Shown one piece after another: positions 3,998 to 23,810 of a DNA stretch of 35,810 nucleotides. The notes under the pieces were generated by a model. It saw nothing but the letters and a program-made list of their open reading frames with translations, was not told the origin of the DNA and made no database searches. Location: the IMG/VR virus record IMGVR_UViG_3300046467_001379, positions 1 through 35,810 of that record, one strand, 5' to 3'. Origin of the DNA: a virus. The translations under genes were made by a program, and so were the position numbers. Within the stretch, counting starts at the first letter, position 1; each line of letters starts with the position of its first letter.

Positions 3998-4015
3998 TAA
4001 ATAAGGATATCAAAT

Positions 4016-5927: not shown

Positions 5928-5983
5928 ACGCAAACCTGTAATACAAGCGCGCAAATGAACGCAAATTGATGAACTTTTAATAT
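5891..5983 (+). repeat. Three iterons with a 31-bp period
   Basis: AAATGAACGCAAA occurs exactly at 5891-5903, 5922-5934 and 5953-5965, so the copies are 31 bases apart, close to three helical turns. A partial copy (TGAACGCAAA) at 5915-5924 adjoins the second one. The array covers the end of the gp16 gene and the gap before the Mor-like gene. Same-face spacing suggests a protein-binding array controlling the downstream activator gene; no binding protein can be named. Confidence 0.6.
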
Positions 5984-9668: not shown

Positions 9669-9944
9669 ATGAATAAGCAACAATTAATCAAAGACATGGC
9701 TACTAGCGCTGGCATCTCTCAAGTCGCCGCTAAGGCTGCCTTGCAATCGTTCCAAGATAACGTCATGTTCGCGCTCTCCGATGGTGAAGATGTCGTGCTA
9801 GTCAACTTCGGTACGTTTAAGACAAGTCAGCAGCCTGCGCGAATAGCACGTAATCCTGCCACTGGTGAAGCTGTCAAAGTTCCTGCCAAAAAGCGCGTGA
9901 GCTTTGTCGCGGGTAAGGGCTTAAAAGAGGCGGTTAACTTATAA
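9669..9944 (+). CDS. HU-family DNA-bending protein encoded by the phage
   Basis: This 91-residue protein has the full HU/IHF fold: N-terminal helices (MNKQQLIKDMATSAGISQVAAKAAL), the VVLVNFGTFKT strand, and the DNA-inserting arm with the hallmark RNPATGE followed by VKVPAKKRVSFVAGKGLKEAV. HU bends DNA and is required to assemble the Mu transpososome; a phage-borne copy could serve that step or help packaging and late transcription. The stop codon lies inside an 18-bp perfect palindrome (9933-9950) and a terminator follows. Confidence 0.95.
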   Translation: MNKQQLIKDMATSAGISQVAAKAALQSFQDNVMFALSDGEDVVLVNFGTFKTSQQPARIARNPATGEAVKVPAKKRVSFVAGKGLKEAVNL

Positions 9945-10880: not shown

Positions 10881-10916
10881 AACCCGCTATCAGTGCCCAC
10901 TGACAGCGGGTTTTTT
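10881..10916 (+). terminator. Strong intrinsic terminator ending the early region
   Basis: A 15-bp stem with one mismatch (AACCCGCTATCAGTG at 10881-10895 against CACTGACAGCGGGTT at 10898-10912 or adjoining bases) closes on a very short loop and runs into TTTTTT. It separates early genes from the first late promoter only six bases downstream. Confidence 0.85.
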
Positions 10917-10921
10917 AATGC

Positions 10922-10969
10922 CTACCTGAACCGCATCATCTAACCGTATTGACCCTCTCTACTCATAAT
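10922..10969 (+). promoter_or_regulatory. Late promoter P1 with 24-bp shared activator element
   Basis: The element CTACCTGAACC...CATCTAACC at 10922-10945 is identical in all 24 positions to copies at 18072 and 23736. It ends 18 bases before CATAAT (10964-10969). The place of a -35 box holds the end of the element and no TTGACA-like sequence, as expected for a Mor/C-activated promoter. Transcription would begin near 10976 and read the lysis, packaging and portal genes. Confidence 0.8.
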
Positions 10970-11001
10970 GGCCTTACATCAATTATTGATATGAGCGTGT
11001 T

Positions 11002-11790
11002 ATGTCTGATCTAAATATCGTCGAAGAGCGTACGCAGTTTTTTGACTGGCTGCGCTATCAGCAACCCGAAAAATCACTGACTCAAGACAATGTCGATGCC
11101 GGTCATACACTGCTACTGAAATTTCGGACTGACGAGCTGCAAGAGCTGCTGATTCGCATTGGTCTTGCGCACCCGCCTGTACTGCTTATCCCAAATTCCA
11201 ATCCGCCAAAAGTACAGCGCGATGACATCATTATCGCTGCTGACCGTATCAATGTGCCTGCGGCTCAAATCAAAGCGCTGTCTGATGTGGAGTCGCCCAA
11301 AGGTGGATTTAACCCTGATGGCACGCCCAAGATTTTATTTGAGCGTCATAAGTTTTATCAAGCATTGACCGAGCTTAACTGGATCACCAAGCGTGACGAA
11401 ATGCGAGAAAAATACCCTGATATTTGCCATCCCAATCCAGGCTCATACAACACGCGACCGCAGTACGAAAAACTAGAAATCGCTGCAACGCTGAACTGGG
11501 ATGCCGCGCATGAATCTGCATCGTGGGGCTTTGGTCAAGTTATGGGCTTTAACTGGAAGTCGCTCGGCTACGACTCTGTGCGTGATTTTGTCACGCTGAT
11601 GTATGCATCAGAAGGCTGTCAGCTCGATGCGGTCTGTCGCTATATCAAGGTTAATAATCTAGATGATGAACTGCGCCGTAAAGACTGGGCTGGTTTTGCA
11701 AAAGGTTATAACGGTAAGAAATATCGCATCAATAAATATGATACCAAAATGGCGACGGCTCATACGCAAGCCAAAAAGAATGGGTGGTAA
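11002..11790 (+). CDS. Endolysin, N-acetylmuramidase family (DUF3380)
   Basis: This 262-residue protein has the N-acetylmuramidase pattern: a small N-terminal part (residues 1-75, possibly cell-wall binding), then DVESPKGGFNPDGTPKILF followed by ERHKFY, with Glu97 as the likely catalytic acid. The rest of the lysozyme-like domain includes ASWGFGQVMGFNWKSLGY and FVTLMYASEGCQLDAVCRYI. It cuts peptidoglycan at the end of infection. No signal peptide is seen, so export through a holin is expected; a holin candidate follows immediately. First gene after late promoter P1. Confidence 0.88.
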   Translation: MSDLNIVEERTQFFDWLRYQQPEKSLTQDNVDAGHTLLLKFRTDELQELLIRIGLAHPPVLLIPNSNPPKVQRDDIIIAADRINVPAAQIKALSDVESPKGGFNPDGTPKILFERHKFYQALTELNWITKRDEMREKYPDICHPNPGSYNTRPQYEKLEIAATLNWDAAHESASWGFGQVMGFNWKSLGYDSVRDFVTLMYASEGCQLDAVCRYIKVNNLDDELRRKDWAGFAKGYNGKKYRINKYDTKMATAHTQAKKNGW

Positions 11791-11792
11791 GT

Positions 11793-12008
11793 ATGAATAT
11801 TAAACCAGTAGAAAACTGGCAGCAAGGCTGGAAATGGCTTAGTAATTGGGCGTTTGTATTGGTGGTGTTTCTCGCTACGACACCATTGCCACCTGAGCTG
11901 CTCATGATGTTGCCCGAAGAAAACCAAAAGTATGTGATCGCTATCGTCGCATTCGCGGGGTTAATCCTGCGGTTTGTCAATCAATCAAAAAATAGGACAT
12001 GGTCATGA
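11793..12008 (+). CDS. Holin candidate, small two-span membrane protein
   Basis: This 71-residue protein has two membrane segments (NWAFVLVVFLATTPLP and YVIAIVAFAGLILRFV) joined by a short loop and ends in a positively charged tail (NQSKNRTWS). Size, topology and position directly after the endolysin fit a class II-type holin, which would form the hole that releases the endolysin. Start ATG 11793 follows GGTGG; an in-frame start at 11784 lies in the endolysin gene. The stop overlaps the next start (ATGA). Confidence 0.7.
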   Translation: MNIKPVENWQQGWKWLSNWAFVLVVFLATTPLPPELLMMLPEENQKYVIAIVAFAGLILRFVNQSKNRTWS

Positions 12009-12229
12009 GTCTTGAAGATATTGCAATACAGATCATAGATTTGACCGATGAGGACTTTGTGGCGATGGAGTCAGAATGCTTGAACCAAGCCAATTATCAC
12101 CATCCGTTAAAGCCTGCAACCACCGCAAAAGTGCGCAAGTTGGGTCAACACAATATGAAGACCTTAAAACTGCTTAAAGAGCTGCAATTGCATATGGCTG
12201 AAGCCGAGAAAATGGAAGTCGAGCTATAA
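12005..12229 (+). CDS. Small hypothetical protein of the lysis block
   Basis: This 74-residue protein is soluble and helical with an acidic start (IQIIDLTDEDFVAMESECL) and a helical end rich in Leu, Lys and Glu. The start at 12005 is preferred over 11999 because AGGA lies seven bases upstream. It overlaps the holin candidate by four bases. It is not recognised; its place between holin and zinc-finger gene is typical of late-operon small proteins in Mu-like phages. Confidence 0.6.
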   Translation: MSLEDIAIQIIDLTDEDFVAMESECLNQANYHHPLKPATTAKVRKLGQHNMKTLKLLKELQLHMAEAEKMEVEL

Positions 12230-12230
12230 C

Positions 12231-12452
12231 ATGGACGATCTCATCGATAAAGCCAACAAACAAGCGCAGCTTAATCTTGATGCAGCATTGGCAGCAGCTC
12301 GTCTTAAGACGCAAGCACTGACTGCCAATGATGTCACGGACTGCATCGAGTGCGACAAGCCTATCGGTGAGCAGCGCAAGCAATATATGCCATCTGCCAC
12401 TCGCTGCATCCCTTGTCAAAACGAGTATGAAGTATGGGAGCGTAGACAATGA
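12231..12452 (+). CDS. TraR/DksA-type C4 zinc-finger protein
   Basis: This 73-residue protein has the TraR/YbiI layout: a helical N-terminal arm (DDLIDKANKQAQLNLDAALAAARL) and a C-terminal zinc finger CIEC...CIPC (residues about 38-62). TraR-type proteins bind the secondary channel of RNA polymerase and mimic DksA plus ppGpp. A phage copy in the late operon could shift host transcription during late infection. It overlaps the next gene by four bases. Confidence 0.85.
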   Translation: MDDLIDKANKQAQLNLDAALAAARLKTQALTANDVTDCIECDKPIGEQRKQYMPSATRCIPCQNEYEVWERRQ

Positions 12453-12733
12453 CTGACACGTTAATTATGTTTGCCCTCGCAACGGTAGTGACATTGGTAT
12501 CCACCGTGTTTTGGCGTTGGGTCAGCTCTATCAGTCATACACAGGATAAAAATGGTGCTCAGATTGATGAAGTGGCCGCAGACGTTGCCAATCTCAAAGC
12601 CGAGGTATACCGCGACTATCAAAGTAAAACTGAGTCGCATCGTGACAATGCACAAATCATGGACATGCTGCGCGAGATTAAAGATAACGTCACGCGCTTG
12701 GGTGACAAAATGGACAAAAAGGCGGACAAGTAA
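12449..12733 (+). CDS. Membrane-anchored coiled-coil protein (DUF2730-like or spanin-like)
   Basis: This 94-residue protein has one N-terminal membrane span (LIMFALATVVTLVSTVFW) and a charged helical remainder with heptad-like spacing (IDEVAADVANLKAEVY, IMDMLREIKDNVTRLG). In Mu-like phages a DUF2730 protein with this form sits between lysis and terminase genes; an inner-membrane spanin (Rz-like) has the same topology. No lipobox Rz1 frame was seen inside it. The start overlaps the previous stop (ATGA). Confidence 0.65.
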   Translation: MTDTLIMFALATVVTLVSTVFWRWVSSISHTQDKNGAQIDEVAADVANLKAEVYRDYQSKTESHRDNAQIMDMLREIKDNVTRLGDKMDKKADK

Positions 12734-12734
12734 T

Positions 12735-12989
12735 ATGCCAAATCAGCAACAGCATTTTAATAAGCAAGCCGCACCTGATGCCACTCAAGCACCTGATGAG
12801 GTCATGCAGCTACTGGGTGATATCAAAGCACAAAATCAGACGATGATGCAGCAGTTTGACACGCTAGAGACCAATATTAGCAAACGTGCCACGATGGCGG
12901 GAGCAATGGCCGGGGCTTTTACCGGCGGCGTTGGGGGTACTGTCGTCAGCGTCGGCATAGAGCTTATCAAAGCTAAGTTTGGGGGCTGA
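12735..12989 (+). CDS. Small protein with glycine-rich C-terminal hydrophobic segment
   Basis: This 84-residue protein starts at ATG 12735 after AAGGCGG. The N-terminal half is polar and helical (EVMQLLGDIKAQNQTMMQQFDTLE split over residues 22-45). The C-terminal half is a glycine-rich hydrophobic stretch (GAMAGAFTGGVGGTVVSVGI) that could insert in the membrane or pack as a glycine-zipper. Unrecognised; it may be a second holin-type or antiholin-type protein given its position. Confidence 0.6.
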   Translation: MPNQQQHFNKQAAPDATQAPDEVMQLLGDIKAQNQTMMQQFDTLETNISKRATMAGAMAGAFTGGVGGTVVSVGIELIKAKFGG

Positions 12990-12990
12990 G

Positions 12991-13491
12991 ATGGCGCATT
13001 CGCAAGCGACAAAAGATGATCTACGCAAAAAATATATCTTTGATGGCCTATCGCTAACAATGGCGGCTGTCACAACTGATGTCGGCTATGCAACCGCACA
13101 GCGCTGGAAAAACCAAGCAGCTGATGCAGGTGACGACTGGGACAAAGTCAAAGTTGCACACACTATGGCGGGTGGCGACTTAGAAGACATATCGCGGCAA
13201 ATCTTGACCGACTTTATCATCCAGTTTAAAGCGACGATGGAGTCTATCAAAGCCGCTGATGATATCGGACCAGGACAGCGTGTTGAGATGCTGACCAGTC
13301 TGGCTGATGCCTACAATAAAACCGTCGCCTCAAGCCGTAAGCTGCTACCTGAGACCTCTAAATTAGCGGTGGCGCTGCAAGTACTGGAGCTGCTCGCAAA
13401 GTATATCCAAGAGCACAAGCCTGATCTGCTGATTGAGTTTATGGATGTGCTCGATCCGTTTGGTGATTTGATTGCTAAGGAATTGAAGTGA
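12991..13491 (+). CDS. Small terminase subunit-like protein (DUF1804, Mu gp27 type)
   Basis: This 166-residue protein matches DUF1804 proteins that precede the large terminase in Mu-like phages: KDDLRKKYIFDGLSLTMAAV, then a helix-turn-helix-like YATAQRWKNQAADAGDDW, and helical LEDISRQILTDFIIQF. The HTH would recognise DNA at the left phage end for packaging. Start ATG 12991 follows GGGGG; an upstream TTG in frame lies in the previous gene. The stop overlaps a 30-codon ORF (13488) that leads to the large terminase. Confidence 0.8.
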   Translation: MAHSQATKDDLRKKYIFDGLSLTMAAVTTDVGYATAQRWKNQAADAGDDWDKVKVAHTMAGGDLEDISRQILTDFIIQFKATMESIKAADDIGPGQRVEMLTSLADAYNKTVASSRKLLPETSKLAVALQVLELLAKYIQEHKPDLLIEFMDVLDPFGDLIAKELK

Positions 13492-13580
13492 CCGACTTTG
13501 AAACCAAGCTACTAGAGCGCTTAAAGACTATCGGTAACCAGCTGTCATGGATTGGCCTCTGGTTATTTATCATTTGCTAA
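13488..13580 (+). CDS. 30-residue membrane microprotein candidate
   Basis: GTG at 13488 overlaps the previous TGA (GTGA) and is preceded by AAGGAA five bases upstream. The frame reads MTDFETKLLERLKTIGNQ, then LSWIGLWLFIIC and TAA: an amphipathic charged helix followed by a short hydrophobic end. It fills the gap between the two terminase genes. Translation is suggested only by the coupling and ribosome site. Confidence 0.45.
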   Translation: MTDFETKLLERLKTIGNQLSWIGLWLFIIC

Positions 13581-13598
13581 AGACGTGTGCGGGATAAT

Positions 13599-15221
13599 AT
13601 GAAAAACAAAGAGTTTGCTGATCGTCTCAAGGATATTGCCCGTGCGCTGCAAGCGGACATCGATGCGCATTGCAATGACTGGGACAATGATCCTGCTGTC
13701 ATTAAAGAGCGTGTCGCTAAAGTCAATGACACCGTCACAGGCTTTGAATACTTTGTCACGCATTACTTCCCACATTACCTGCGTAACCCAAGCCAATCGT
13801 ATCTGCACCAGTATCTATTTGCTCGCTTACCGCAAATTCTATCGTCTGAGCGCTCAGAGCTTGATGCTCTGGCCGCGCCGCGTGGTGAGGCAAAATCCAC
13901 CATCGTCACACGTCTATTTGCCTTGTACTGCGTCGTCACTGACCAAAAGAAATACATCGGCATCATCAGTGACAGCCTTGACCAATCTGCTGAGTTTTTG
14001 CAAGCCATCAAAACAGAGCTTGAGGTCAATCCGCGTATCAAGACTGACTTTCCAAAAGTACATGGTGCCGGTCGTATTTGGCAGTCGTATACCATCAATA
14101 CCGCCAACAGCATCAAGATACAGTGTGCCGGCGCTCGCAAAAAAATGCGTGGTTGGGTTTACGGGGCATATCGTCCTGACCTTGTGCTGCTCGATGATTT
14201 GGAAAACGATGAGAACGTCGAAAGCCCTGACCAGCGTGACAAGCTAGAAAGATGGCTAAAGCGGACACCGCTGAAACTGGCAGCGGCTGGCGAAAAGATG
14301 GATGTGGTCTATATCGGTACCATCTTGCATCATGACAGCGTACTCAATCGCATCCTGAAGAATAAGGGCTGGACAACACGGGTATTCAAAGCACTGCTTG
14401 AGTGGCCCGATAACATGAAGCTGTGGGATGAATGGGAAGCTATTTACCACGACGAAGGCGAAGCGGCCGCCATTGCGTTTTATCACAAGCATAAGCGCAA
14501 GATGGACAAAGGCGCTGTGGTGTCGTGGGATGCACGCCCCATCCTTGAGCTGATGATTATCCGTGCGCGTGATGGTCATGGTAACTTTGACAGCGAGTTG
14601 CAGAACGACCCTGCGGCTGGCGAAGACTCACCCTTTAGTGATTCAATTAACTACTGGCGTGAGCTGCCTGCGGGACTGGTTTACTTTGCCGCGCTCGATC
14701 CGTCATTGGGGAAAAAAGGTGCTAAACGTAAGCGTGGCGACCCGTCAGCCATCATTATCGGTGGCTATGACCGACTGCACGGCAAGCTGTATATCGTACT
14801 GGCAGACATCCAAAGGCGCACCCCTGACAAGATCATATCAGACGTCATTCGCTACCAAAAAGAATATAACTGTCTTGGCTGGGCGGTTGAAGCCGTGCAG
14901 TTTCAAGAGTTTTTGCGCACTGAAATCGTTAAACGCTCTGCCGCTGCTGGTGTCCATGTGCCTGCTATTGCCGTCCATCCGCATAACGACAAGATATTAC
15001 GTATTACTGCATTGCAGCCACACATGGAAAACGAGCTGCTGCTATTGCATCACAAGCAAAAGACGCTGATTGCACATTTTACCCATTTCCCCAAACACGA
15101 AAACGACGACGGCCCTGATGGGACTGAAATGGTCTGGAAGCTTGCGACCAGCTTTGCCCGTGCGAGTAATGCGCCAGTACAAGCGTATGATGTGCCCCAG
15201 CCAAGCCTGTACCACTATTAG
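13599..15221 (+). CDS. Large terminase subunit (Mu gp28-like packaging ATPase-nuclease)
   Basis: This protein of about 540 residues powers DNA translocation into proheads and cuts the DNA. The ATPase domain has a Walker A-like PRGEAKST (Lys99) and Walker B LVLLDDLEND (Asp199-Asp200). The C-terminal RNase H-like nuclease begins with FAALDPSLG (Asp367) and GDPSAIIIGGYD. The start at ATG 13599 is preferred; a GTG 12 bases upstream is possible. In Mu-like phages packaging starts inside flanking host DNA and proceeds headful, so virions carry variable host ends. The portal gene follows 15 bases later. Confidence 0.93.
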   Translation: MKNKEFADRLKDIARALQADIDAHCNDWDNDPAVIKERVAKVNDTVTGFEYFVTHYFPHYLRNPSQSYLHQYLFARLPQILSSERSELDALAAPRGEAKSTIVTRLFALYCVVTDQKKYIGIISDSLDQSAEFLQAIKTELEVNPRIKTDFPKVHGAGRIWQSYTINTANSIKIQCAGARKKMRGWVYGAYRPDLVLLDDLENDENVESPDQRDKLERWLKRTPLKLAAAGEKMDVVYIGTILHHDSVLNRILKNKGWTTRVFKALLEWPDNMKLWDEWEAIYHDEGEAAAIAFYHKHKRKMDKGAVVSWDARPILELMIIRARDGHGNFDSELQNDPAAGEDSPFSDSINYWRELPAGLVYFAALDPSLGKKGAKRKRGDPSAIIIGGYDRLHGKLYIVLADIQRRTPDKIISDVIRYQKEYNCLGWAVEAVQFQEFLRTEIVKRSAAAGVHVPAIAVHPHNDKILRITALQPHMENELLLLHHKQKTLIAHFTHFPKHENDDGPDGTEMVWKLATSFARASNAPVQAYDVPQPSLYHY

Positions 15222-15236
15222 CGATAAGGATAAATT

Positions 15237-16727
15237 ATGTTTGGCATAAAACCCAAAAAGCAAAAGGTTGACCAAAAGACGCTTTATGTCGCTTTTGATA
15301 CTGCGCTTGAAAGCAGCGACGCTGTCAGTGCCGACGTGCTACTACAAGAGACCGGCAAGACCCGCCAAGAGCTGCTCGATGCGGTCATGGCAGACGATGA
15401 GGTTATCAGCTGCCGCGAGGATATCGAAGGCGCTATCAGTGCTGCTGCGTGGCGAATTTGGGGCGAAGACGTCAATGAAGATGTGGTCAATCGGCTTTAT
15501 CGCATCATACGCCGCTTGCATAATGACTTTGCCGCGCTTGCTATCCTTGCCAAGTTTAACGGTTATGCCGTCGCTGAATACGTGTTTAAAAAAGAGCCTG
15601 ACGGATTTTTGACACTACACAGTTTATTGTCCAAAGACGGTGAGCTGGATAACTACACGCCCATGCGTGATGGCTCGATGCAGCTCAAAACCGAAGAAGA
15701 TAGCATTGAGATCAATCAAATTATCAAGTACCTGGTGCTGACCAGCAAGGCCGTTCCCGCGCGCCCTGCTGGTGAGTTGATGATTGTCCGTGCCTATCCT
15801 GCCGTGGCGCTGCGTCGCCGTGAATGGGCGTATGCTGGGCAGTTTATCGCTCGCTACTCTCAGCCGTATGTCGTCGGCACACAAGGCGCTGATGGCGTCT
15901 TTGGCACAACGCTGGGTGACTTTACCAGTAAGATATTTAGTTTTATCAATGGTGGCGCTGCCGGTATCGGTAAAGACGACAAGATCGAGATGCACCAGCT
16001 GTCAGGTGACGGCTCAGCGTTTGAATTATTTGAGCGCCTTGCCAATAGACGTATCCAAAAGCTGCTATTAGGCCGCGTCAAGACCAGCGAGCTATCAGCA
16101 GGCAGTCGAGCGGCTCAAGAGACCGATGACGAGGCACGCCAAGACCGAGTGATGTCATATCTTGGGCTGATGACCCGTGGTATACAGCACGCCATCGATG
16201 CCATTATCGCGGTCAATCAAGCGTGGGGTCTACCGATTAATGCCCCGCAAGGCATTTGGTTTGAATATCCTATCGTCAAAAAATTCAGCAAAGATGAGGC
16301 AGAGATTGACGCGAAATACGTCAGCACGGGTCAAGTAAGGCTGACTAAACAGCGACTACTCAATGTCGGCTACGAAGAGTCTGAGTTTGAGATTATCGAT
16401 AATGTGGTACCAGTTCCGACGCCCGTACCGACGACACAGCAAATCCTTGACCAGCTCTCACTGCAATATAAGCTCTCTCAGAATCTACCGACGATCATCA
16501 CTGACCCTGCGACTGCCGACGATATCGAGCAAGAGCGCGGCTTGATGAAGTCCAAAGTTGAAGCGTTGCTATCATTGGTCAATGACTGCAAAGATTACAG
16601 CGAGTTTGAGCGCAAGCTGTCTGCTCTGCAACTGCCTGACGACGGCGTGGTAGCTGACTTAGCTGATTTGCTGACTGCAACGTTTGTCGATGCGCTCATC
16701 GATGATAAGGATAACAAAAATGCCTGA
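15237..16727 (+). CDS. Portal protein (DUF935, Mu gp29-like)
   Basis: This 496-residue protein has the DUF935 portal pattern: helical LQETGKTRQELLDAVMADDEVISC, WRIWGEDV, FNGYAVAEYVFK, then RREWAYAGQFIARYSQPYVVG over residues about 195-215 and TDDEARQDRVMSYLGLMTRGIQ later. It forms the dodecameric ring through which DNA enters and to which the tail attaches. ATG 15237 follows AAGGA. The 3' end overlaps the gpF-like gene by eight bases. Confidence 0.92.
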   Translation: MFGIKPKKQKVDQKTLYVAFDTALESSDAVSADVLLQETGKTRQELLDAVMADDEVISCREDIEGAISAAAWRIWGEDVNEDVVNRLYRIIRRLHNDFAALAILAKFNGYAVAEYVFKKEPDGFLTLHSLLSKDGELDNYTPMRDGSMQLKTEEDSIEINQIIKYLVLTSKAVPARPAGELMIVRAYPAVALRRREWAYAGQFIARYSQPYVVGTQGADGVFGTTLGDFTSKIFSFINGGAAGIGKDDKIEMHQLSGDGSAFELFERLANRRIQKLLLGRVKTSELSAGSRAAQETDDEARQDRVMSYLGLMTRGIQHAIDAIIAVNQAWGLPINAPQGIWFEYPIVKKFSKDEAEIDAKYVSTGQVRLTKQRLLNVGYEESEFEIIDNVVPVPTPVPTTQQILDQLSLQYKLSQNLPTIITDPATADDIEQERGLMKSKVEALLSLVNDCKDYSEFERKLSALQLPDDGVVADLADLLTATFVDALIDDKDNKNA

Positions 16728-17595
16728 TGCTTATACTGATGCCAACTTTGATATCTTGCCAAACTTAGAGGCAATCAAAGCCTTTAACACTAAGATGATC
16801 GGCTCAAGCTTTAGCTATCTGGATGTGCTCGCTCATGAGCACGCTGTCGCCTTTACCGTCGCAAAGATGATGGACATGGATATGCTGTCTGAAACCAAAG
16901 ACGCTATCAGCGCGGCACTAGAAAATGGCACAGACTTTCGTGACTTTCAAAAACGCCTAAAACCTTACATGATGAGTAAAGGCTGGTGGGGCGAGCAAGT
17001 CATGAGTGACCCTATCGATGGCTCTATCCAAAAAGTACAGCTGGGCAGTACGCGCAGACTGCGCACGATATATCAGACCAATCTGCATACGGCATACGCG
17101 GCTGGGCAATGGGAACGTATCCAGCAGTCCAAAGACGCACTGCCATACTTGCAATATATGCCGTCACTAGCGACTCGTAAGCGCGACGATCACAAGCAGT
17201 ACTACGGCATCATCAGACCTATCGACGACCCAATCTGGCAGCAGATACTACCGCCAAACGGATATGGCTGTCTGTGCTGGGTCAAGCAGCTGACACGCAA
17301 ACAAGCGGAACGCGCTGGCGGTGTGACCGAAGATAAAGACGTCGAATATGAGGAAGTCGAAAACCCACGCACTGGTAAAAAGGAGCAAGTACCGACTGGC
17401 ATCAGCTTAAGCTTTGCGAGTAATCACGCCAATCGGCTTGGCTCGCTACTGAATATCGCTGAAGAGAAGCACGGACGCGACTTTAGACAGCAGCTCATAC
17501 CACAGCTCGCGGATTATATGCAGCGTCTGCTAGAAGCTGGACTGGTCGATATGATAAAAGATGATCCGAGGTTTGCAGCGTTGTTGCCAGAGTAA
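16720..17595 (+). CDS. F: Head morphogenesis protein, Mu gpF-like (minor head protein)
   Basis: This 291-residue protein carries the Phage_Mu_F signature: RTIYQTNLHTAYAAGQWERI, LPYLQYMPSLATRKRDDHKQ (residues about 145-165), and the conserved PPNGYGCLCWVKQLTRKQ with its cysteine pair. Such minor head proteins assist prohead assembly and may be ejected with DNA. ATG 16720 lies inside the portal end, following AAGG. It is shorter than Mu gpF (427) and lacks the long N-terminal part, as seen in many D3112-like relatives. Confidence 0.9.
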   Translation: MPDAYTDANFDILPNLEAIKAFNTKMIGSSFSYLDVLAHEHAVAFTVAKMMDMDMLSETKDAISAALENGTDFRDFQKRLKPYMMSKGWWGEQVMSDPIDGSIQKVQLGSTRRLRTIYQTNLHTAYAAGQWERIQQSKDALPYLQYMPSLATRKRDDHKQYYGIIRPIDDPIWQQILPPNGYGCLCWVKQLTRKQAERAGGVTEDKDVEYEEVENPRTGKKEQVPTGISLSFASNHANRLGSLLNIAEEKHGRDFRQQLIPQLADYMQRLLEAGLVDMIKDDPRFAALLPE

Positions 17596-17642
17596 TGCAG
17601 ATGGTTTATATTGGACTGAATGATATGAGCTAAGAGGTGGTG

Positions 17643-17828
17643 ATGAGTAATTTCGTATTCTACGGTCAAGGCATGGAGGCTGATGAAACTAACGACATAA
17701 AAGTCGCCCTTGATGGTGATTACATAGAGTTGCAGGATGATGGTTGTATATACGCACTAATACCGATAGAGAAATGGCAGAAGCTAAGAAGTGATATTGA
17801 TGAGCGATTAGCGAAAGGGCTGCGTTAA
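17643..17828 (+). CDS. Small acidic protein in the gpF-protease interval (candidate anti-defence cargo)
   Basis: This 61-residue acidic protein (13 Asp/Glu against 7 Lys/Arg) is not recognised. ATG 17643 follows AAGAGG six bases upstream. It lies between the minor head gene and the protease/scaffold block, alone, and is followed by a terminator. In D3112-like Pseudomonas phages, anti-CRISPR genes occupy a comparable slot among head genes. No HTH aca-type gene adjoins it, so the link rests on position, size and acidity only. The sequence IPIEKWQKLRSDIDERLA forms a predicted helix. Confidence 0.65.
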   Translation: MSNFVFYGQGMEADETNDIKVALDGDYIELQDDGCIYALIPIEKWQKLRSDIDERLAKGLR

Positions 17829-17883
17829 AAAACATCGAACATATACCTCATAACTCCAGATTAAAGCCCAAACCTATCAAAAT

Positions 17884-17910
17884 AGCCCGCTCATCGCAGT
17901 GGGCTTTTTT
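17884..17910 (+). terminator. Intrinsic terminator ending late block 1
   Basis: AGCCCGCT (17884-17891) pairs with AGTGGGCT (17898-17905) around CATCGC and leads into a run of six T. It stops transcripts from P1 after the small acidic ORF and before promoter P2. Confidence 0.85.
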
Positions 17911-17952
17911 ATGCCTGTCGTTTATGCGCCTGTGTCTATAACTTAGATAGCG

Positions 17953-17970
17953 TTTAACACCCGTTTAACG
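17953..17970 (+). repeat. Dispersed intergenic motif, copy 1
   Basis: TTTAACACCCGTTTAACG here matches TTTAACACCCATTTAACG at 19651-19668 at 17 of 18 positions. Related TTTAACG/CGTTTAA words also lie in other intergenic gaps. Purpose unknown. Confidence 0.5.
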
Positions 17971-18071
17971 TCTCGACTACGCGCTTTTAACATCGCCATC
18001 ACGTCATTACAGCAAATATTAAGCAAAACGGCTTAAATCGCAAATAACAGCCGTTTGTATTTTATGCCTAA

Positions 18072-18119
18072 CTACCTGAACCGCATCATCTAACCATATT
18101 TAATGCCGCTCATCATAAT
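18072..18119 (+). promoter_or_regulatory. Late promoter P2 with 24-bp shared activator element
   Basis: The 24-bp element at 18072-18095 is identical to those of P1 and P3, and CATAAT (18114-18119) lies exactly 18 bases after its end. P1 and P2 also share TATT just downstream of the element and a G after the -10. No -35 box is present. It would transcribe the protease/scaffold, capsid, Acb2-like, connector and tail-tube genes. Confidence 0.8.
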
Positions 18120-18182
18120 GAGACTTTATCGACACTCTTTATTTTACGTTGTCGCGATTTTACTCATTAGCTGGACGTCATT

Positions 18183-19169
18183 ATGCCAAAAGACCACAAA
18201 AAGCCAAATATCTATCTGCTCTCTGAAGTCAATGTCGCTGATGCCCCTGCTGATGCGGATAAGTCGTTGCCGCGCAAGTTCAGTGGTGTCGCCAACTCTG
18301 GCAAGCCATTTAATCACTATGGCGAGATGGTCGTCGTTGACTTAACGGACATCCAATACAAGTCAAACGTCCCTGCGCTATTGCTGCATGACCGTGCCCA
18401 ACGTGCCGGATTTGGTACGCTCAGCGTCACAAATAATCAATTGCTCATCGATGGCACGTTGCTAGATAACCAGTTCGGCCGCGATGTCGCTGACGATTCG
18501 GATGCTGGATTCCCTTGGCAGATGTCTATTCATGTTAACGCTAATAGCATGACAGAGCTTGGGCAGAATGAAAAAGCAACCGTCAACGGTAGCGAGGTCA
18601 CTGGCCCACTCGTTATCCTCAAAAATTGCAGCGTCTCCGAGGTATCGTTTACCCCTACTGGTGTAGATGACGAAACCTCTGCCATCGCTCTAGCAGATAG
18701 CGGAATACCTAACTCATCAACTCCTCAACCCAATACGCAAAAGGACACCACCATGACTCCTGAAGAAATCGCAGCACTACAAAAGCTTGCCGCTGACCAA
18801 GCTGAAGAGATTAAGACTCTTAAAGAAGAAAAAGCCGAGCTTGAGAAAGAAAAAGCCGAAGCAGAAGCCGAAGCAAAAGCCGCTGCTATCGATGCGCAAT
18901 TATCACAAGCAGGCTTTACCAAAACTGAAGACGGCAAAGCATGGAACGGTGTCGGTACAGCGACGGTCAATATGCTGCTGTCTGCCAGTCCTGAAGATGC
19001 CAAAGCAATGATCGGTGATCTGCGTGCGCCAAATACGCAAGACAATGTGCCTGAGTATCTACTAGGTGAGCAGCACAAGCCCAGTAACGGTCAAGAGCGT
19101 CAGCTGTCTAGCAATCCGATGTTAGCCAATGCTGAAGCACGCGCCGCCGAGGCAAAAAACTATATCTAA
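18183..19169 (+). CDS. I: Phage protease with fused scaffold (Mu gpI-like)
   Basis: This 328-residue protein has an N-terminal prohead-protease part (residues about 20-165): VPALLLHDRAQRAGFG supplies the histidine region, PWQMSIHV a possible serine, and CSVSEVSFTPTGVD the closing strand motif. A linker leads to a C-terminal scaffold (residues about 191-328) with a long charged helix (EEIKTLKEEKAELEKEKAEA and repeats of Ala/Glu/Lys). It shapes the prohead and then digests the scaffold. An internal start at 18753 probably makes free scaffold. First gene after P2. Confidence 0.85.
   Translation: MPKDHKKPNIYLLSEVNVADAPADADKSLPRKFSGVANSGKPFNHYGEMVVVDLTDIQYKSNVPALLLHDRAQRAGFGTLSVTNNQLLIDGTLLDNQFGRDVADDSDAGFPWQMSIHVNANSMTELGQNEKATVNGSEVTGPLVILKNCSVSEVSFTPTGVDDETSAIALADSGIPNSSTPQPNTQKDTTMTPEEIAALQKLAADQAEEIKTLKEEKAELEKEKAEAEAEAKAAAIDAQLSQAGFTKTEDGKAWNGVGTATVNMLLSASPEDAKAMIGDLRAPNTQDNVPEYLLGEQHKPSNGQERQLSSNPMLANAEARAAEAKNYI
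18753..19169 (+). CDS. Z: Nested in-frame scaffold protein (Mu gpZ-like internal start)
   Basis: Inside the protease gene, AAGGA stands eight bases before ATG 18753, in the same frame, exactly where the scaffold domain begins. This would yield a 138-residue protein (MTPEEIAALQKLAADQAEE onward) identical to the protease C-terminus. Mu I/Z and lambda C/Nu3 use the same arrangement. Position and ribosome site are seen; expression is inferred. Confidence 0.55.
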   Translation: MTPEEIAALQKLAADQAEEIKTLKEEKAELEKEKAEAEAEAKAAAIDAQLSQAGFTKTEDGKAWNGVGTATVNMLLSASPEDAKAMIGDLRAPNTQDNVPEYLLGEQHKPSNGQERQLSSNPMLANAEARAAEAKNYI

Positions 19170-19182
19170 TTAACGCATGGCA

Positions 19183-19208
19183 GGCGCTGGCAAACGTCCA
19201 GCGTCTTT
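19183..19208 (+). terminator. Weak hairpin after the protease gene
   Basis: GGCGCTGG (19183-19190) pairs with CCAGCGTC (19198-19205) and is followed by only three T. It is more likely an attenuator or mRNA-protecting hairpin than a full terminator. Confidence 0.35.
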
Positions 19209-19242
19209 GATGGCTTAAACGATTAATCACTTAAACAACAAA

Positions 19243-19270
19243 TTTATCGAACCCTATTTATCGAACCCTA
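19243..19270 (+). repeat. Perfect 14-bp tandem duplication before the decoration gene
   Basis: TTTATCGAACCCTA occurs twice in direct succession (19243-19256, 19257-19270). The second copy runs into the AGGAG ribosome site of the next gene. It looks like a recent slippage duplication in the leader. Confidence 0.7.
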
Positions 19271-19280
19271 GGAGCACCCC

Positions 19281-19622
19281 ATGCCCAATGAACATTACGT
19301 CACGATTGGCGATATCTTAAAGTCCGAAGCGGATCGCAGCAATCGCATCGCTATCCCTGCCGCTGTCGGCACCAAGACTGGTGCGCTGGTCAAATATACC
19401 GAGCGCAACGAATATCTATTTGCGTTGACTGACGAAACCAACGGCGAAGTACTGGTACAACCGCATAACTGCACCGTGTTTTTGGGCAGTATTCCACAAG
19501 CCAATATCGACACGACGTTTACCGACGAAGAAGGTCTAGTGCCACTGACAGTCGCGACGCTAAAAACCCAAGGTGACTTGTACGGCATCAAGTATGTCGG
19601 CACGCCAATGGCTACTGTTTAA
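19281..19622 (+). CDS. Putative head decoration protein
   Basis: This 113-residue, strand-rich protein (GALVKYTERNEYLFALTDE, GEVLVQPHNCTVFLG) lies between the protease/scaffold and the gpE-type capsid gene, the place where lambda-like phages encode gpD. Good AGGAG ribosome site nine bases before the ATG. Family assignment is by position, size and general character; I do not see a decisive motif. Confidence 0.5.
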   Translation: MPNEHYVTIGDILKSEADRSNRIAIPAAVGTKTGALVKYTERNEYLFALTDETNGEVLVQPHNCTVFLGSIPQANIDTTFTDEEGLVPLTVATLKTQGDLYGIKYVGTPMATV

Positions 19623-19650
19623 AAGCCTTTTAACGCAATACTAAAACTGA

Positions 19651-19668
19651 TTTAACACCCATTTAACG
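19651..19668 (+). repeat. Dispersed intergenic motif, copy 2
   Basis: TTTAACACCCATTTAACG lies just ahead of the capsid gene's ribosome site and matches the copy at 17953-17970 with one difference. Confidence 0.5.
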
Positions 19669-19691
19669 CAAGTCTAAACCTAGGAATGATT

Positions 19692-20681
19692 ATGCCTTTA
19701 TCCAATGAAAGTCAGTATGGCGTCGTGCCAATGACCGAGGCAATTAACAAGTTGCCTGCCAATCCCACTATTATTCGCGAGCTTGGACTGTTCAAGCCGC
19801 AGTACGAAACCACAACCTCTGTCGCTGTCGAAGTGAAAAACGGCGTATTAACGCTAGTCAAAGCAGTGCCTCGCGGTACGCCTGGTGAGCCTGTAAAAAC
19901 CAACCTTGGCAATCGTCAAAGCTTTGAGATGTTGCATCTGCCTAAGGATGATGTCGTCCGAGCTGATGATGTGCAAAACGTGCGCACCTTTGGCGGTGGC
20001 AACAAAGCGCAAACAGTCGCTGAAAAGGTCAACGACAAGCTTGCTGATATGAAGTCCGATATCGAATACACCCGTGAGCATTTAATGCTTGGTGCGTTAT
20101 CAGGCAAGATTTTGAACGCTGACGGCGACCCTATTATCGATATCTATGAGCGCTTTGGGTTAACTCGCCAATCCATTAACTGGAACTTATCGGCTACCAA
20201 TGGCAATGTTGGATCGATGATTGATAGCGCCGTGCGTAACTTAAGCAAAAAGCGTGGCGGTGAGCCAGTCAATGGCTGGATCGTGCTGTGCTCTCCAACG
20301 TTTATGGATGCGGTTATTTACCATAAGACCGTTACCGCTATCTATGAGCGTTACCAAGAAGGCTCTGCCTATCGTAGCGGCGATACGAGCGTCGGCTTTG
20401 AACATAAAAAATTGAAGTTTATTAACTACGATCATGTGTTTGAGTCTGGTCTACAAATCACAGAAGGCGAAGCGATTATTTTGCCAGCTGGTACTAAGAA
20501 CACGTTTAAAGAGTTCTTTGCCCCTGCGGATAAATCGTCCACGGTCAACACCAAGGCATTAGCGTACTACGCGAGCCGTGAGCCATTGGGTCATGACAAA
20601 GGCTGGAGTCTTGAGGCGCAATCTAACCCATTGCCATTGTTGCTACGTCCTGAGCTGGTCGCTACGCTAAAAATGACCTAA
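19692..20681 (+). CDS. Major capsid protein, lambda gpE family
   Basis: This protein of about 329 residues fits the Phage_cap_E family: MTEAINKLPANPTIIRELGLF at the start, the VAVEVKNGVLTLVKAVPRG strand region, LPKDDVVRADDVQNVRTFG, and the C-terminal EPLGHDKGWSLEAQSNPLPLL with RPELVATLKM. It builds the icosahedral shell. ATG 19692 is preferred over 19686 because AGGA lies six bases upstream. Mu itself uses gpT, a different capsid family, so the head genes here combine Mu-type assembly factors with a lambda-type shell. Confidence 0.92.
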   Translation: MPLSNESQYGVVPMTEAINKLPANPTIIRELGLFKPQYETTTSVAVEVKNGVLTLVKAVPRGTPGEPVKTNLGNRQSFEMLHLPKDDVVRADDVQNVRTFGGGNKAQTVAEKVNDKLADMKSDIEYTREHLMLGALSGKILNADGDPIIDIYERFGLTRQSINWNLSATNGNVGSMIDSAVRNLSKKRGGEPVNGWIVLCSPTFMDAVIYHKTVTAIYERYQEGSAYRSGDTSVGFEHKKLKFINYDHVFESGLQITEGEAIILPAGTKNTFKEFFAPADKSSTVNTKALAYYASREPLGHDKGWSLEAQSNPLPLLLRPELVATLKMT

Positions 20682-20697
20682 TCACTTAGCTTAAACC

Positions 20698-20722
20698 CCT
20701 TGGCTGGCAGTGCTGGTCAAGG
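20698..20722 (+). terminator. Imperfect hairpin after the capsid gene
   Basis: CCTTGGCTGGC and GCTGGTCAAGG can pair around AGT with several G-U pairs; only a short ATGTTTTA follows. It is at most a weak terminator or an mRNA-stabilising structure behind the highly expressed capsid gene. Confidence 0.3.
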
Positions 20723-20757
20723 ATGTTTTACCCAAATAATTACACAAGGTAAAGACC

Positions 20758-20982
20758 ATGAGTGATGATAAACCAAAAGTTAAAGGCTATCGCCAGCTGA
20801 CAGACGCTGAGATTGATGCCATTAATAAAATTAAAGCAAAAGCTGAAGAAGTTGGCAACTTGGTTGAGCAGCTACAGATGTCTGGCGGCTTAGACCAACG
20901 CGCCATTAATATCGGCAAAACTGAGCTACAAACTGGCTTTATGTGGCTAACACGCGGTATTGCCCAGCCTGACAGTTTTTAG
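20758..20982 (+). CDS. acb2: Acb2/Tad1-like cyclic-nucleotide sponge (anti-CBASS / anti-Thoeris)
   Basis: This 74-residue protein has the compact family pattern: KGYRQLTDAEIDAINKIKAK, a middle helix AEEVGNLVEQLQ, and the C-terminal DQRAINIGKTELQTGFMWLTR followed by GIAQPDSF. Acb2 proteins of phages form hexamers that soak up cyclic di- and trinucleotides and so block CBASS; Tad1 relatives bind the Thoeris signal. The gene lies between capsid and connector genes in the late block, with AAGG upstream of the ATG. Recognition is by sequence pattern from memory, without a search. Confidence 0.75.
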   Translation: MSDDKPKVKGYRQLTDAEIDAINKIKAKAEEVGNLVEQLQMSGGLDQRAINIGKTELQTGFMWLTRGIAQPDSF

Positions 20983-20990
20983 GACTGACC

Positions 20991-21422
20991 ATGATTACAT
21001 CACAAGATCTAATCGACCGCTTTGGTGAGACCGAAATAGCAAAGCTGACAGACAGAGTGAGTTATCAAGTGATTGATGCAGCTGTCGCGGCAACCGCTAT
21101 CAAAGACGCGGAAGGCGAAGTCGCAGGGTATCTGCGTGCTGCTGGCTTAGTCAGCAAAGACGCTTTGGGTAATGTCGTTTATCGTAATGGCGCTGATCTA
21201 CCCTCTGATTTAGCACTGCATACGTGCAATATTGCTCGCTACAACCTGTACGACAATGGCGTCACTGAAACGGTCGAAAAGCGCTATGACGATGCGATCA
21301 AGTGGCTCGATAAGGTCAAAAAAGACCCGACGATGCTCACTGGGCCTATCGCTGAGCAGCCAACGGCGAGCGGTGGTATCAGCGTCATACCAAATCCGGT
21401 ACCGAATATTTACCAGGACTGA
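20991..21422 (+). CDS. Head-tail connector, DUF1320 (Mu gp36-like)
   Basis: This 143-residue protein shows the gp36 pattern: MITSQDLIDRFGETEIAKLT at the start, a central helical DAEGEVAGYLRAAGL, and LHTCNIARYNLYD followed by VEKRYDDAIKWLDKV. It is the Mu-type adaptor that joins portal to tail. It begins eight bases after the Acb2-like gene and ends two bases before the next. Confidence 0.9.
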   Translation: MITSQDLIDRFGETEIAKLTDRVSYQVIDAAVAATAIKDAEGEVAGYLRAAGLVSKDALGNVVYRNGADLPSDLALHTCNIARYNLYDNGVTETVEKRYDDAIKWLDKVKKDPTMLTGPIAEQPTASGGISVIPNPVPNIYQD

Positions 21423-21424
21423 TT

Positions 21425-21874
21425 ATGCAAATCAATGTCGATAGTCAATTGCCAGAGCTGCGTGACAAGGTTGGCGAGATTTATCTCAAGCTGAATGGCG
21501 ACTTAACACCGCTTATGCGTGGCGTCGCTGCCGTCATTGAAAACAGCAGCCGTGACAGATTCCGCACCAAGACCGCGCCTGACGGCAGTACATGGGCAGA
21601 CCTCAAGCCATCTACTCTCAAAGCTAAAAAAGGTCGCGGTAGTAAGATGGTTGAATATGGCGACTTGATGCGCTCTATCACTAGCTACGCCAATAGCACG
21701 TCGGCAGTAGTCGGTACAGATAGACCGTACGCCAAATATCACCAAACTGGCACGAAGAATAGCGACGGCTCTGAACGTATGGAAGCCCGTCCGATATTTG
21801 GCATATCAGTCGATGACCGTACCGACGTGCTGGACTTAATGAACGACTTTATGGCAGGAGTAGTCAATGGCTAA
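21425..21874 (+). CDS. G: Virion morphogenesis protein (Mu gpG / P2 gpS family)
   Basis: This 149-residue protein has the family hallmarks: RFRTKTAPDGSTWADLKPST, YGDLMRSITSYANSTSAVVGT and YAKYHQTGTK, then PIFGISVDD. It acts at the head-tail junction or tail completion stage. It overlaps the gp37-like gene by eight bases. Confidence 0.9.
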   Translation: MQINVDSQLPELRDKVGEIYLKLNGDLTPLMRGVAAVIENSSRDRFRTKTAPDGSTWADLKPSTLKAKKGRGSKMVEYGDLMRSITSYANSTSAVVGTDRPYAKYHQTGTKNSDGSERMEARPIFGISVDDRTDVLDLMNDFMAGVVNG

Positions 21875-22340
21875 TGTACCGGCATGGAACGACAACGCCT
21901 TGGCGTGCTATCCATATGTGCTTGAGCGTTTACGGGAAGTATCGCAAGTTAAACGTGTGCTAGAAGCTGCTGACTTTGCAGCCATTAGCGGTGCTCAGCG
22001 TAAGCAAGTCCCGCTCGATGGTGCGGTCTATCTCATCTTGGACGGTTATACGCCAACCGCCAGCAATGGCAAAGGACGTGAGCAGCTGATTGAGATTGGC
22101 TTTAGTGTGATATTGACCAAGCAGCAATTTACGCCAAACCCTGCGTCGGATGATGTCGGCAAGACGCTGACCGCGCTATCAAAAGCGCTACAAGGTTTTG
22201 ATCCAAGCGATGCGCAAGGCCGTGCGTTGGTGACTGATCCATTCGAGTCGCGTCCACCACTGCCGATCCAATACGAAGATGGCTTTGCTTTTTTCCCGCT
22301 GCGCTTCACTGCTGAAGTGGCCATTTTATCAGACAACTAA
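21867..22340 (+). CDS. Tail terminator-like protein (DUF1834, Mu gp37 type)
   Basis: This 157-residue protein begins inside the gpG-like gene. It has a helical start (YVLERLREVSQVKRVLEA), a strand region with DGAVYLILDGYTP and EIGFSVILTK, and a C-terminal YEDGFAFFPLRFTAEVAI. Order and fold pattern fit Mu gp37, a likely tail terminator that caps the tube. Assignment is supported mainly by position between gpG and tail tube. Confidence 0.7.
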   Translation: MANVPAWNDNALACYPYVLERLREVSQVKRVLEAADFAAISGAQRKQVPLDGAVYLILDGYTPTASNGKGREQLIEIGFSVILTKQQFTPNPASDDVGKTLTALSKALQGFDPSDAQGRALVTDPFESRPPLPIQYEDGFAFFPLRFTAEVAILSDN

Positions 22341-22352
22341 CAAGGATTTATT

Positions 22353-22445
22353 ATGTACGACTTCTTTCGCTACGTACCGCATTACAGCAAAATTGCACAT
22401 AATTCGCGTAACAATACGCGCACTAAGTCTCAGCGCAAAAAGTAA
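22353..22445 (+). CDS. 30-residue basic microprotein candidate
   Basis: ATG 22353 has AAGGA six bases upstream. The frame reads MYDFFRYVPHYSKIAHNSRN, then NTRTKSQRKK and TAA. It is aromatic at the front and very basic at the end. It occupies the gap between the gp37-like and tail-tube genes, where Mu has the small gene gp38, but no similarity is claimed. Confidence 0.5.
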   Translation: MYDFFRYVPHYSKIAHNSRNNTRTKSQRKK

Positions 22446-22512
22446 TACAACCCTAAGTTAATCAAACGTTAACCAAGCATTAAACGACATTTAAACGACA
22501 AGGAATACGATC

Positions 22513-23253
22513 ATGGCACAACGAGGTAAGAAGTATAGCGGCGACTTGTACGCTCGCAAACACGGCACGATGGATGGCTTTATCTTAGTGGGTAATGTCA
22601 CTGAGCTATCGACCAGTAAAGACTCTGACAGCGACCAACTGACCAGCACCGGTCGCGGTGAGTATGGCGAAGTCATCGAAAACGAAAGTATCCCTGGTCC
22701 CACTGAACTGGCTATCAAGTTTAATACTTTTGATAAGACGGCAATGGCGCGAGTCATGATGGGTGAAGCGATTGACCTATCGACCACGCCTGTTGTATTT
22801 GCGGATGAGCCTCTGACCGTCGGTCTGAATTGGCTAAAGCTTGCCCATCGTGATATCGATGAGACGCAGCTGGTATTGACTGATTCGACCGATATCGTTA
22901 TTGATGCTAGTACTTACAAGGTCAACCCTCGCTTGGGCATGATTCAGTTTACGGCTGATAGCACGCTCGAGCCGGGCGCTGTTATTACGTATAGCGGCTC
23001 AACAGTTGGCTCAGCAGGCTATCAGATTGATGCAAACACGCTCACGTCTTTACCGCTTGAGATGTACTTGGATGGTAAAGACCGTATCTCTGGTCAAGAT
23101 GGCATCTTGGACATGCCACACGCTGAATTGTCTAGTGATAGCGATATCAACTGGTTTAGCGACGACTGGTGGGAAGGTGGTTTATCAGGGCCGCTCATCA
23201 AAGACACAGGCAAGCCAACGATGCGCTTTACCGAGTACAAACTCGCGCCGTAA
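22513..23253 (+). CDS. Tail tube protein (siphovirus major tail protein)
   Basis: This 246-residue, strand-rich protein is consistent with lambda gpV-type tube subunits with an added insertion domain: GFILVGNVTELSTSKDSDSD, GPTELAIKFNTFDK, then an inserted LVLTDSTDIVIDASTYKVNP beta region, and a closing SLPLEMYLDGKDR with ALSS-type strands. ATG follows AAGGA eight bases upstream. No sheath gene follows, so the tail is non-contractile. A strong terminator lies 30 bases after its stop, ending late block 2. Confidence 0.8.
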   Translation: MAQRGKKYSGDLYARKHGTMDGFILVGNVTELSTSKDSDSDQLTSTGRGEYGEVIENESIPGPTELAIKFNTFDKTAMARVMMGEAIDLSTTPVVFADEPLTVGLNWLKLAHRDIDETQLVLTDSTDIVIDASTYKVNPRLGMIQFTADSTLEPGAVITYSGSTVGSAGYQIDANTLTSLPLEMYLDGKDRISGQDGILDMPHAELSSDSDINWFSDDWWEGGLSGPLIKDTGKPTMRFTEYKLAP

Positions 23254-23281
23254 GTCTGATAGCTATATGAATTAAGCATTA

Positions 23282-23327
23282 CCCAAAGAGCAGTAGACAA
23301 ATTTTGTTTACTGCTCTTTTTTGGGTT
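23282..23327 (+). terminator. Strong intrinsic terminator ending late block 2
   Basis: AAAGAGCAGTAGAC (23285-23298) pairs with GTTTACTGCTCTTT (about 23306-23319) around an A/T loop, with one G-U pair, and extends into TTTTTT. ACCC/GGGT further out can lengthen the stem. It is well separated from the small membrane-protein gene that follows. Confidence 0.9.
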
Positions 23328-23351
23328 ATGATGCGATATTACTTTACCGAT

Positions 23352-23357
23352 TATACT
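23352..23357 (+). promoter_or_regulatory. Possible -10 box for the 23373 gene
   Basis: TATACT lies 15 bases before ATG 23373, but no convincing -35 box is present and the resulting leader would be only about 10 bases. It is listed because the gene is isolated by a terminator upstream and must be served somehow. Confidence 0.25.
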
Positions 23358-23372
23358 TTGAGGGCTGGGATT

Positions 23373-23735
23373 ATGAAGGGTCAGAAGGGTTTTACTTTTA
23401 TACATATATTAGGAATCGCTGTAGCTACAATCGTTCTTGCTATCTATATTTTTGCTGAAAAAAAACCGCTTGAAAAACCTCGAAGTGAGCAAGTGCAAGA
23501 GTTGTTTTTTGCTGATGGCTCTAATTATCAGTTAATCCAGTTAGTTAAAAAAAGCATGAATGATCCTGACTCATTTGAGCATGTTGAAACTAAATATGTG
23601 GATAACGGTAGCGGTGATGTCGTAATTTTTATGAAATTTCGAGGAAATAATGCTTTTGGCGCTAAAGTTTTAACTGAAGCAGTAGCTAATATTGATCCTG
23701 AGACAGAGATGATTACTAATTTAGTAACGAGGTAA
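23373..23735 (+). CDS. Self-contained membrane-anchored cargo gene (moron)
   Basis: This 120-residue protein has one N-terminal membrane span (FTFIHILGIAVATIVLAIYIF) after a short basic leader, then an exported domain with LVKKSMNDPDSFEHVETKY, a GDVVIFMKFRG strand and NNAFGAKV. The MxDPDSFEHV...FRGxNAFG pattern recurs in small accessory proteins of bacteria and phages whose function I do not know. ATG 23373 is preferred over 23304, which lies in the terminator. The gene is visibly A+T richer than its neighbours and sits between a terminator and late promoter P3. Superinfection exclusion is a reasonable guess. Confidence 0.75.
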   Translation: MKGQKGFTFIHILGIAVATIVLAIYIFAEKKPLEKPRSEQVQELFFADGSNYQLIQLVKKSMNDPDSFEHVETKYVDNGSGDVVIFMKFRGNNAFGAKVLTEAVANIDPETEMITNLVTR

Positions 23736-23783
23736 CTACCTGAACCGCATCATCTAACCACCAGCCGACCAAAGCACCACAAT
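23736..23783 (+). promoter_or_regulatory. Late promoter P3 with 24-bp shared activator element
   Basis: The 24-bp element at 23736-23759 begins directly after the stop of the membrane-protein gene and is identical to those of P1 and P2. CACAAT (23778-23783) lies exactly 18 bases further, matching CATAAT at the others in five of six positions. The start point would be near 23790, inside the left arm of the terminator hairpin at 23785-23810. It would transcribe the tail operon. Confidence 0.78.
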
Positions 23784-23784
23784 A

Positions 23785-23810
23785 ACCCTATCATTTGATG
23801 GGGTTTTTTT
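23785..23810 (+). terminator. Terminator hairpin overlapping the P3 start point and the tape-measure ribosome site
   Basis: ACCCTATC (23785-23792) pairs with GATGGGGT (23797-23804) around ATTT and leads into seven T, directly against the GTG start at 23811. Transcripts arriving from upstream would form it and stop, with GATGGGG also hidden. Transcripts starting at P3 begin within the left arm and should lack most of it, leaving GATGGGG free as ribosome site. Confidence 0.7.

Follow-up and report, generated by a model that had tools for sequence, protein, structure and literature searches.

Introduction

In phage Mu, the activator Mor binds 5-bp inverted repeats that are separated by a 6-bp spacer within a 16-bp element and centred at -43.5 of the promoter Pm, where it replaces the -35 (PMC4390567). 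The late promoters of Mu (lys, I, P and mom) are served by C, an activator of the same Mor/C family, and combine a -10 with a poor or absent -35, the lysis and head-protease (I) units having one each (PMC4461284). Here we analyse a 24-bp element, CTACCTGAACCGCATCATCTAACC, which occurs three times in a 35,810-nt stretch of viral DNA (IMG/VR record IMGVR_UViG_3300046467_001379, positions 1 to 35,810; this whole stretch is called the window). The window represents a transposable (Mu-like) siphophage of Psychrobacter and encodes a transposase, a transposition ATPase, GemA and a Mor-family protein. Its arrangement and its recurrence in other phages make it very probable that the element is the operator of the single Mor/C-family activator of this phage, encoded at 5998–6444. 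The phage element belongs to the known Mor/C kind; what should surprise the specialist is that it recurs on plasmids.

Several features separate this system from its counterparts in Mu. The three copies are identical, whereas the Mu C sites differ among themselves; the word reads CCTGA-N6-TCATC as compared to TTAT-N6-ATAA in Mu; and it is the tape measure, rather than P, that begins the third unit, with no counterpart of the mom promoter. The Mor/Pm system is similar in its 5-bp arms, the 6-bp spacer, the centre at -43.5 and a terminator sequence that overlaps the operator region, but the Mor-like protein of the window appears to act directly on the late genes, and no separate C protein was found. 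The three-stage cascade of Mu (Mor acting on Pm, C made from it, then the late genes) is not matched, as the window has one Mor/C-family open reading frame (ORF) and not two.

The 24-bp element and its promoter context

The element is found at 10922–10945, 18072–18095 and 23736–23759 (all on the plus strand) without a single difference, exactly as the original prediction had it. None would be expected in shuffled sequence, the whole window has no fourth match within 6 or fewer mismatches on either strand, and a scan of all exact 15-mers in the window revealed no other repeat of this kind. Each copy ends exactly 18 nt before a -10 hexamer on the same strand (CATAAT at 10964–10969, CATAAT at 18114–18119 and CACAAT at 23778–23783), so that the fixed spacing proposed earlier holds at all three sites. 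The placement ahead of late gene blocks is likewise borne out: the next genes, each the first of its late unit and all on the plus strand, code for the endolysin (N-acetylmuramidase, 11002–11790), the head maturation protease (18183–19169) and the tail tape-measure protein (23811–28022). By gene order in the window and in its relatives, the candidate operators thus stand before the lysis, head-protease and tail units.

The promoters had been described as devoid of a -35 box. There is indeed no consensus -35, but the end of the element, CTAACC (10940–10945 in the first copy), lies at -36 to -31, exactly where a -35 box would fall if the spacer is 18 bp long. Three of its six positions agree with TTGACA (T2, A4 and C5), which suggests a weak -35-like contact.

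Symmetry within the element

The Mor/C reading of the original prediction was right in substance, as judged from the Mor-family protein, the Mu-like position of the site and its recurrence at three genes in relatives, but it was wrong on symmetry. The element had been called "not a dyad", yet it contains an imperfect dyad, CCTGA-N6-TCATC, with an outer TA..TA and its centre between positions 11 and 12 (arms at 10925–10929 and 10936–10940 in the lysis promoter). This 16-bp dyad, CCTGAACC|GCATCATC, has 5-bp arms, and 31 nt separate its centre from the first base of the -10. If that base is taken as -12, the dyad centre falls at -43.5, the published Mor centre on Mu Pm. At Pmom of Mu, too, the centre of the TTAT-N6-ATAA dyad is 31 nt from the -10.

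The earlier model has TGAACC and CTAACC, spaced by 13 bp, bound as direct half-sites. It draws on the presence of both hexamers in all three copies, and CTAAC also occurs at the equivalent edge in L089 (GGAAGTCGTTCCGTCTAAC), a member of a clade in which the core differs. Relatives, however, keep TGAACC but not CTAACC: the sequence at that position is CTTAYC in the Moraxella-type locus L084 and CTAATC or GTGACC in phage DMS3, where the second copy amounts to no more than [CG]TNA[CT]C. Among 17 distinct 24-mers, positions 5–10 and 16–20 are invariant, a conservation exaggerated by their selection through a core pattern, and variation is greatest at the outer edge (1–3), at the dyad centre (12 and 14) and at 21, 23 and 24. 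The copies on plasmids described below agree with this, varying mainly at the centre. As the dyad arms are kept in relatives while the CTAACC half is not, and as the dyad score across clades is maximal at 31 nt, we rejected the direct-repeat model, which we regard as improbable.

The putative Mor/C-family activator

The protein encoded at 5998–6444 (plus strand) has a C-terminal helix-turn-helix with the recognition helix TERWAYKVL. It matches phrog_836 (5.8e-30) and PF08765 (3.4e-13, 50 bits with a cut-off of 24.9), and its profile matches the PDB sequences of Mu C (1.6e-5) and Mu Mor (4e-4). The predicted structure has a predicted local distance difference test (pLDDT) value of 78.8. A Foldseek search with this model gave no significant match and no Mor/C entry among the best matches; VIA-align, applied to the same candidates, listed Mu C and Mor, with weak alignments of the C-terminal domain to Mu C (9l0x, Z 4.8) and Mor (9l0y, Z 4.2; 1rr7, Z 3.8). 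No second Mor/C-family member was found among the ORFs of the window.

We propose that this single protein, made with the early genes, would turn on three late units, namely lysis, head and tail tape measure. A dimer of the activator would bind the imperfect dyad centred at -43.5 and, by replacing a proper -35 contact, would bring in the sigma70 RNA polymerase of the host at a promoter that is dead by itself, its own elements being no more than the -10 and the very weak -35-like CTAACC.

The window also encodes other DNA-binding proteins, an S24-type repressor (611–1303), a Ner-like protein (1458–1766) and an HU-like protein (9669–9944), and one of these, or a host factor, might read the element instead. 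This is very improbable, as it is the recognition helix of Mor, rather than the host genus, with which the word varies, and as the element occupies the Mor/C position.

A motif, TGAACGCAAA, is repeated at 5889–5965 just upstream of the Mor-family gene (CGCAAATGAACGCAA at 5919 and 5950), and is possibly a site controlling that gene.

The element in related phages

The exact 24-mer was found in three IMG/VR contigs and in two Psychrobacter genome records. Of the relatives, three are the most complete (the prophage at G004:C39 in P. aquimaris DSM 16329, the metagenome-assembled genome CAJXUF and IMG/VR 3300020443_000089), and each has three copies before the same three genes, with 0–1 mismatch and an invariant distance to the -10. 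Identity to the Mor protein of the window is 97, 61 and 62%, respectively, and the recognition helix FTERWAY[KT]VL is retained. The element thus recurs in relatives at all three places where the original prediction suggested to look, upstream of lysis, protease and tape-measure genes. L084 has a related word, CCCTGAACCCCGTCATCTTA, ahead of its endolysin, protease and tape-measure genes. At least 7 other Psychrobacter genomes with Mor hits were found not to carry the window word, which indicates that the word goes with the activator rather than with the host genus.

Identical copies at the borders of gene modules, as seen within the window genome, might also be sequences of recombination or module boundaries, or recent duplications, devoid of a regulatory role. 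The flanks, however, differ among the three sites and yet match promoter by promoter across phages, so that an origin as linker or duplication was rejected. Moreover, the three copies retained by the relative G005 differ slightly, the distance of 18 nt to the -10 is invariant within the clade, and unrelated words occupy the same position in other clades. We consider a non-regulatory origin extremely unlikely.

A possible recognition code across Mor-family phages

Words repeated upstream of genes were sought in about 40 Mor-family prophages from Moraxellaceae and in phages Mu, DMS3, B3, SuMu, VW-6B and Kp4852-3. Many Mor-family phages carry a word of their own at the same promoter position. When these words were aligned on a -10 that had been picked without regard to symmetry, the dyad score was highest at 31 nt from dyad centre to first -10 base (combined z 3.9 across clades), which is also the best dyad centre in clade A (6/10 pairs). 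The element had been held to define an unusually strict regulon; the three identical copies are real, but other clades of Mor phages also keep near-identical words, at 3–6 promoters.

The clearest pairing of word and helix concerns eight loci with the helix type RWIR/RWVR (L088–L091, L093, L094, L096 and L097). GGAA-N4-TTCC occurs 46 times in 160 kb of these loci, where about 2 sites are expected by composition, but only 5 times in 798 kb of other loci (2.88 vs 0.06 per 10 kb), and the A and T of a -10 are present at 31 nt in 93% of the 46 sites. Four of the loci (L088, L090, L091 and L093) had not been flagged in the repeat scan and so serve as a test set for this pairing. Within 20 kb, each of the eight loci has 5–7 such sites, most of them some 66 bp ahead of a gene; those of L089 stand ahead of the endolysin, portal, protease, tail-tube and baseplate-hub genes.

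A left half of the type [T]GAACC is common to the window group (helix TERWAY), L084 (TERRAY), Kp/VW-6B (TDRWAQ) and DMS3 (SDRWIW). DMS3, a Casadabanvirus of Pseudomonas (L112, NC_008717), resembles the window phage in having a single Mor-family activator and a TGAACC-N4-TC word 31 nt from the -10: GTTGAACCCCTTC is found at 10210 and 18985, with the dyad centre 31 nt before CACGAT and CACCAT, upstream of the lysis genes and the protease. It differs in that only two sites were found and none before the tape measure; these DMS3 operators are predictions of the present analysis. Among matches to the DMS3-type word in viral contigs, 35 of 49 have A2 and T6 of a -10 at 31 nt. Taken together, the comparison suggests a simple protein-DNA code in which the type of recognition helix specifies the half-site word at one fixed promoter position.

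Several observations weigh against the reading of the element as a Mor/C operator. In the window itself only 3 of 5 arm pairs of the dyad match, and in some clades the dyad centre lies anywhere from 30 to 32 nt. L098–L103 share GTGAATAATGAA words at 3–5 promoters, with no dyad recognised at 31 nt; a dyad, if there is any, would be about 27 nt from the -10, and these loci possibly have a different operator geometry. Repeat scans gave no shared word in L072, L075, L076, L078, L081, L083, L087, L095, B3 and SuMu. We nevertheless hold an operator read by the Mor/C-family protein to be very probable, a prediction that draws on the sequence, position and conservation of the element and on the covariation of word and recognition helix. 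It provides a concrete predicted operator for late transcription across a wide range of transposable phages of the Mor family, among them DMS3, which is in wide use.

Some candidates were rejected. TTAT-N6-ATAA, predicted for L106 and L109, in which the recognition helix is like that of Mu C, was not seen at their late genes. A loose viral scan with CCTGAACCNCNTCATCT had the -10 in place at 12 of 115 matches, the remainder looking like chance. L073 and L083 were not used, as their repeats are on the opposite strand or in host genes.

Copies of the probable operator on Psychrobacter plasmids

When the pattern of operator and -10 was scanned over 349 Moraxellaceae genomes, it matched, besides the promoters of the phages, six further loci in Psychrobacter (G040:C46, G072:C60, G088:C123, G025:C37, G050:C8 and G017:C1, the last being plasmid 1 of P. 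cryohalolentis K5, NC_007968). All six are plasmid-like and match operator and -10 by sequence: nearby genes code for a relaxase, Rep (named by eye on G050), RelB/YafQ or restriction-modification, and two contigs have matching ends, as in circular plasmids. A further match, in G278, lies inside a coding gene and was taken as chance.

Some 90 nt downstream of the plasmid operator there is a short ORF that codes for a hydrophobic peptide and has a good ribosome-binding sequence. A first peptide family (MKNLKILSLILDIFATIVEIILLIDITPFL and relatives, 30–33 amino acids) is found at four loci (L070:3722–3946 in G072:C60, L069, L071, and L312 in G025:C37). The second, unrelated to the first, comprises MTLYDLAMLLINFGTLILTFCMLWHMT and one relative, hydrophobic peptides of 27 amino acids (MTLYDLAMLLINF...) at two loci: L068, on the reverse complement from 7982 onward (NC_007968, plasmid 1), and L313 (G050:C8), near 3843–4056. 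The relative scores with Pfam Hol_Tox at E 0.0074, which is below the Pfam cut-off. Searches of the 349 genomes with the peptides alone gave good scores at the same loci only, so that the coupling to the operator is 4/4 and 2/2. Between the G072 and G088 peptides ten codons have changed, at third and first positions only, and six of these changes are silent. The six plasmid-bearing genomes had no Mor hit at 1e-8, and peptide 1, like its cassette, was not found among PLSDB plasmids. In NC_007968 peptide 2 is unannotated, and a BsuBI/PstI-type restriction system lies nearby.

We tentatively propose, from these arrangements, that the plasmids may carry natural phage-sensing suicide (abortive-infection) cassettes, in which a copy of the late operator and -10 from transposable phages of the Mor type would drive a toxin-like hydrophobic peptide of 27–33 amino acids. 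An incoming phage would make its late activator, this would fire the plasmid peptide, and the cell would die or stop before progeny is released. As the same operator is needed at three late promoters, the phage could not easily escape by altering the specificity of its activator, a constraint which, if the proposal is true, could help to explain the near-invariant operator arms. Such plasmids would then be a natural defence that senses infection through the phage's own late promoter.

Alternatively, rather than serving in defence, the plasmid copies may be relics that stem from the late promoters and an accessory gene of a phage, since loss of a prophage could leave a late promoter and a small gene behind. 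However, the peptides fall into two families that are not related, the plasmid contigs showed no structural genes of phages, peptide 2 was not found in phage records, the reading frame is conserved, and the operator arms are kept while the centre is free. We view a relic origin as somewhat doubtful, though a serious possibility.

Cassettes of a comparable logic have been engineered in Lactococcus, where a phi31 promoter drives the LlaI restriction system. The logic that we propose for the plasmids is the same, with a captured phage promoter through which the activator of a phage sets off a killing gene; the Psychrobacter cassettes would differ in being natural, in responding to another phage family and in having tiny hydrophobic peptides as putative effectors. 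Promoters of satellite P4 respond to the Ogr protein of P2, so that here, too, a second replicon bears promoters answering the late activator of a phage, but no satellite capsid-hijacking genes were seen on the Psychrobacter plasmids. To our knowledge, sensing through a borrowed phage late promoter is so far known only as an engineered design, and a literature search, with most subscription journals outside its scope, found no description of this operator or of the plasmid cassettes.

Terminator-like hairpins beside the probable operators

Terminator-like hairpins accompany the operators. A strong intrinsic terminator hairpin (10882–10911, plus strand, with a T-run to 10916; z -6.5) abuts the first operator on its upstream side. 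Upstream of the second, a terminator-like hairpin, AAACGGCT...AGCCGTTT (18026–18056, plus strand), is weak (z -2.0) and is better formed in P. aquimaris and G005. At the tape-measure promoter, a terminator hairpin (23784–23805, plus strand) directly follows the -10, and its 5' arm spans the expected transcript start. In the relative G002 this hairpin is changed on both arms with pairing kept (covariation). Hairpins of this type flank 48 of 67 sites, compared to 18 of 201 segments from mononucleotide shuffles.

Such terminators would insulate each late unit from upstream read-through. The hairpin at 23784–23805 would stop read-through, while a transcript begun within its 5' arm would be unable to form it. 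A 5' arm that starts in or directly after the -10 is also seen in L084 (3413 and 18415) and in L113 (8971). A further strong terminator-like hairpin, with 16 pairs, is located at 23285–23319, upstream of the tape-measure promoter and ahead of the gene that ends at 23735.

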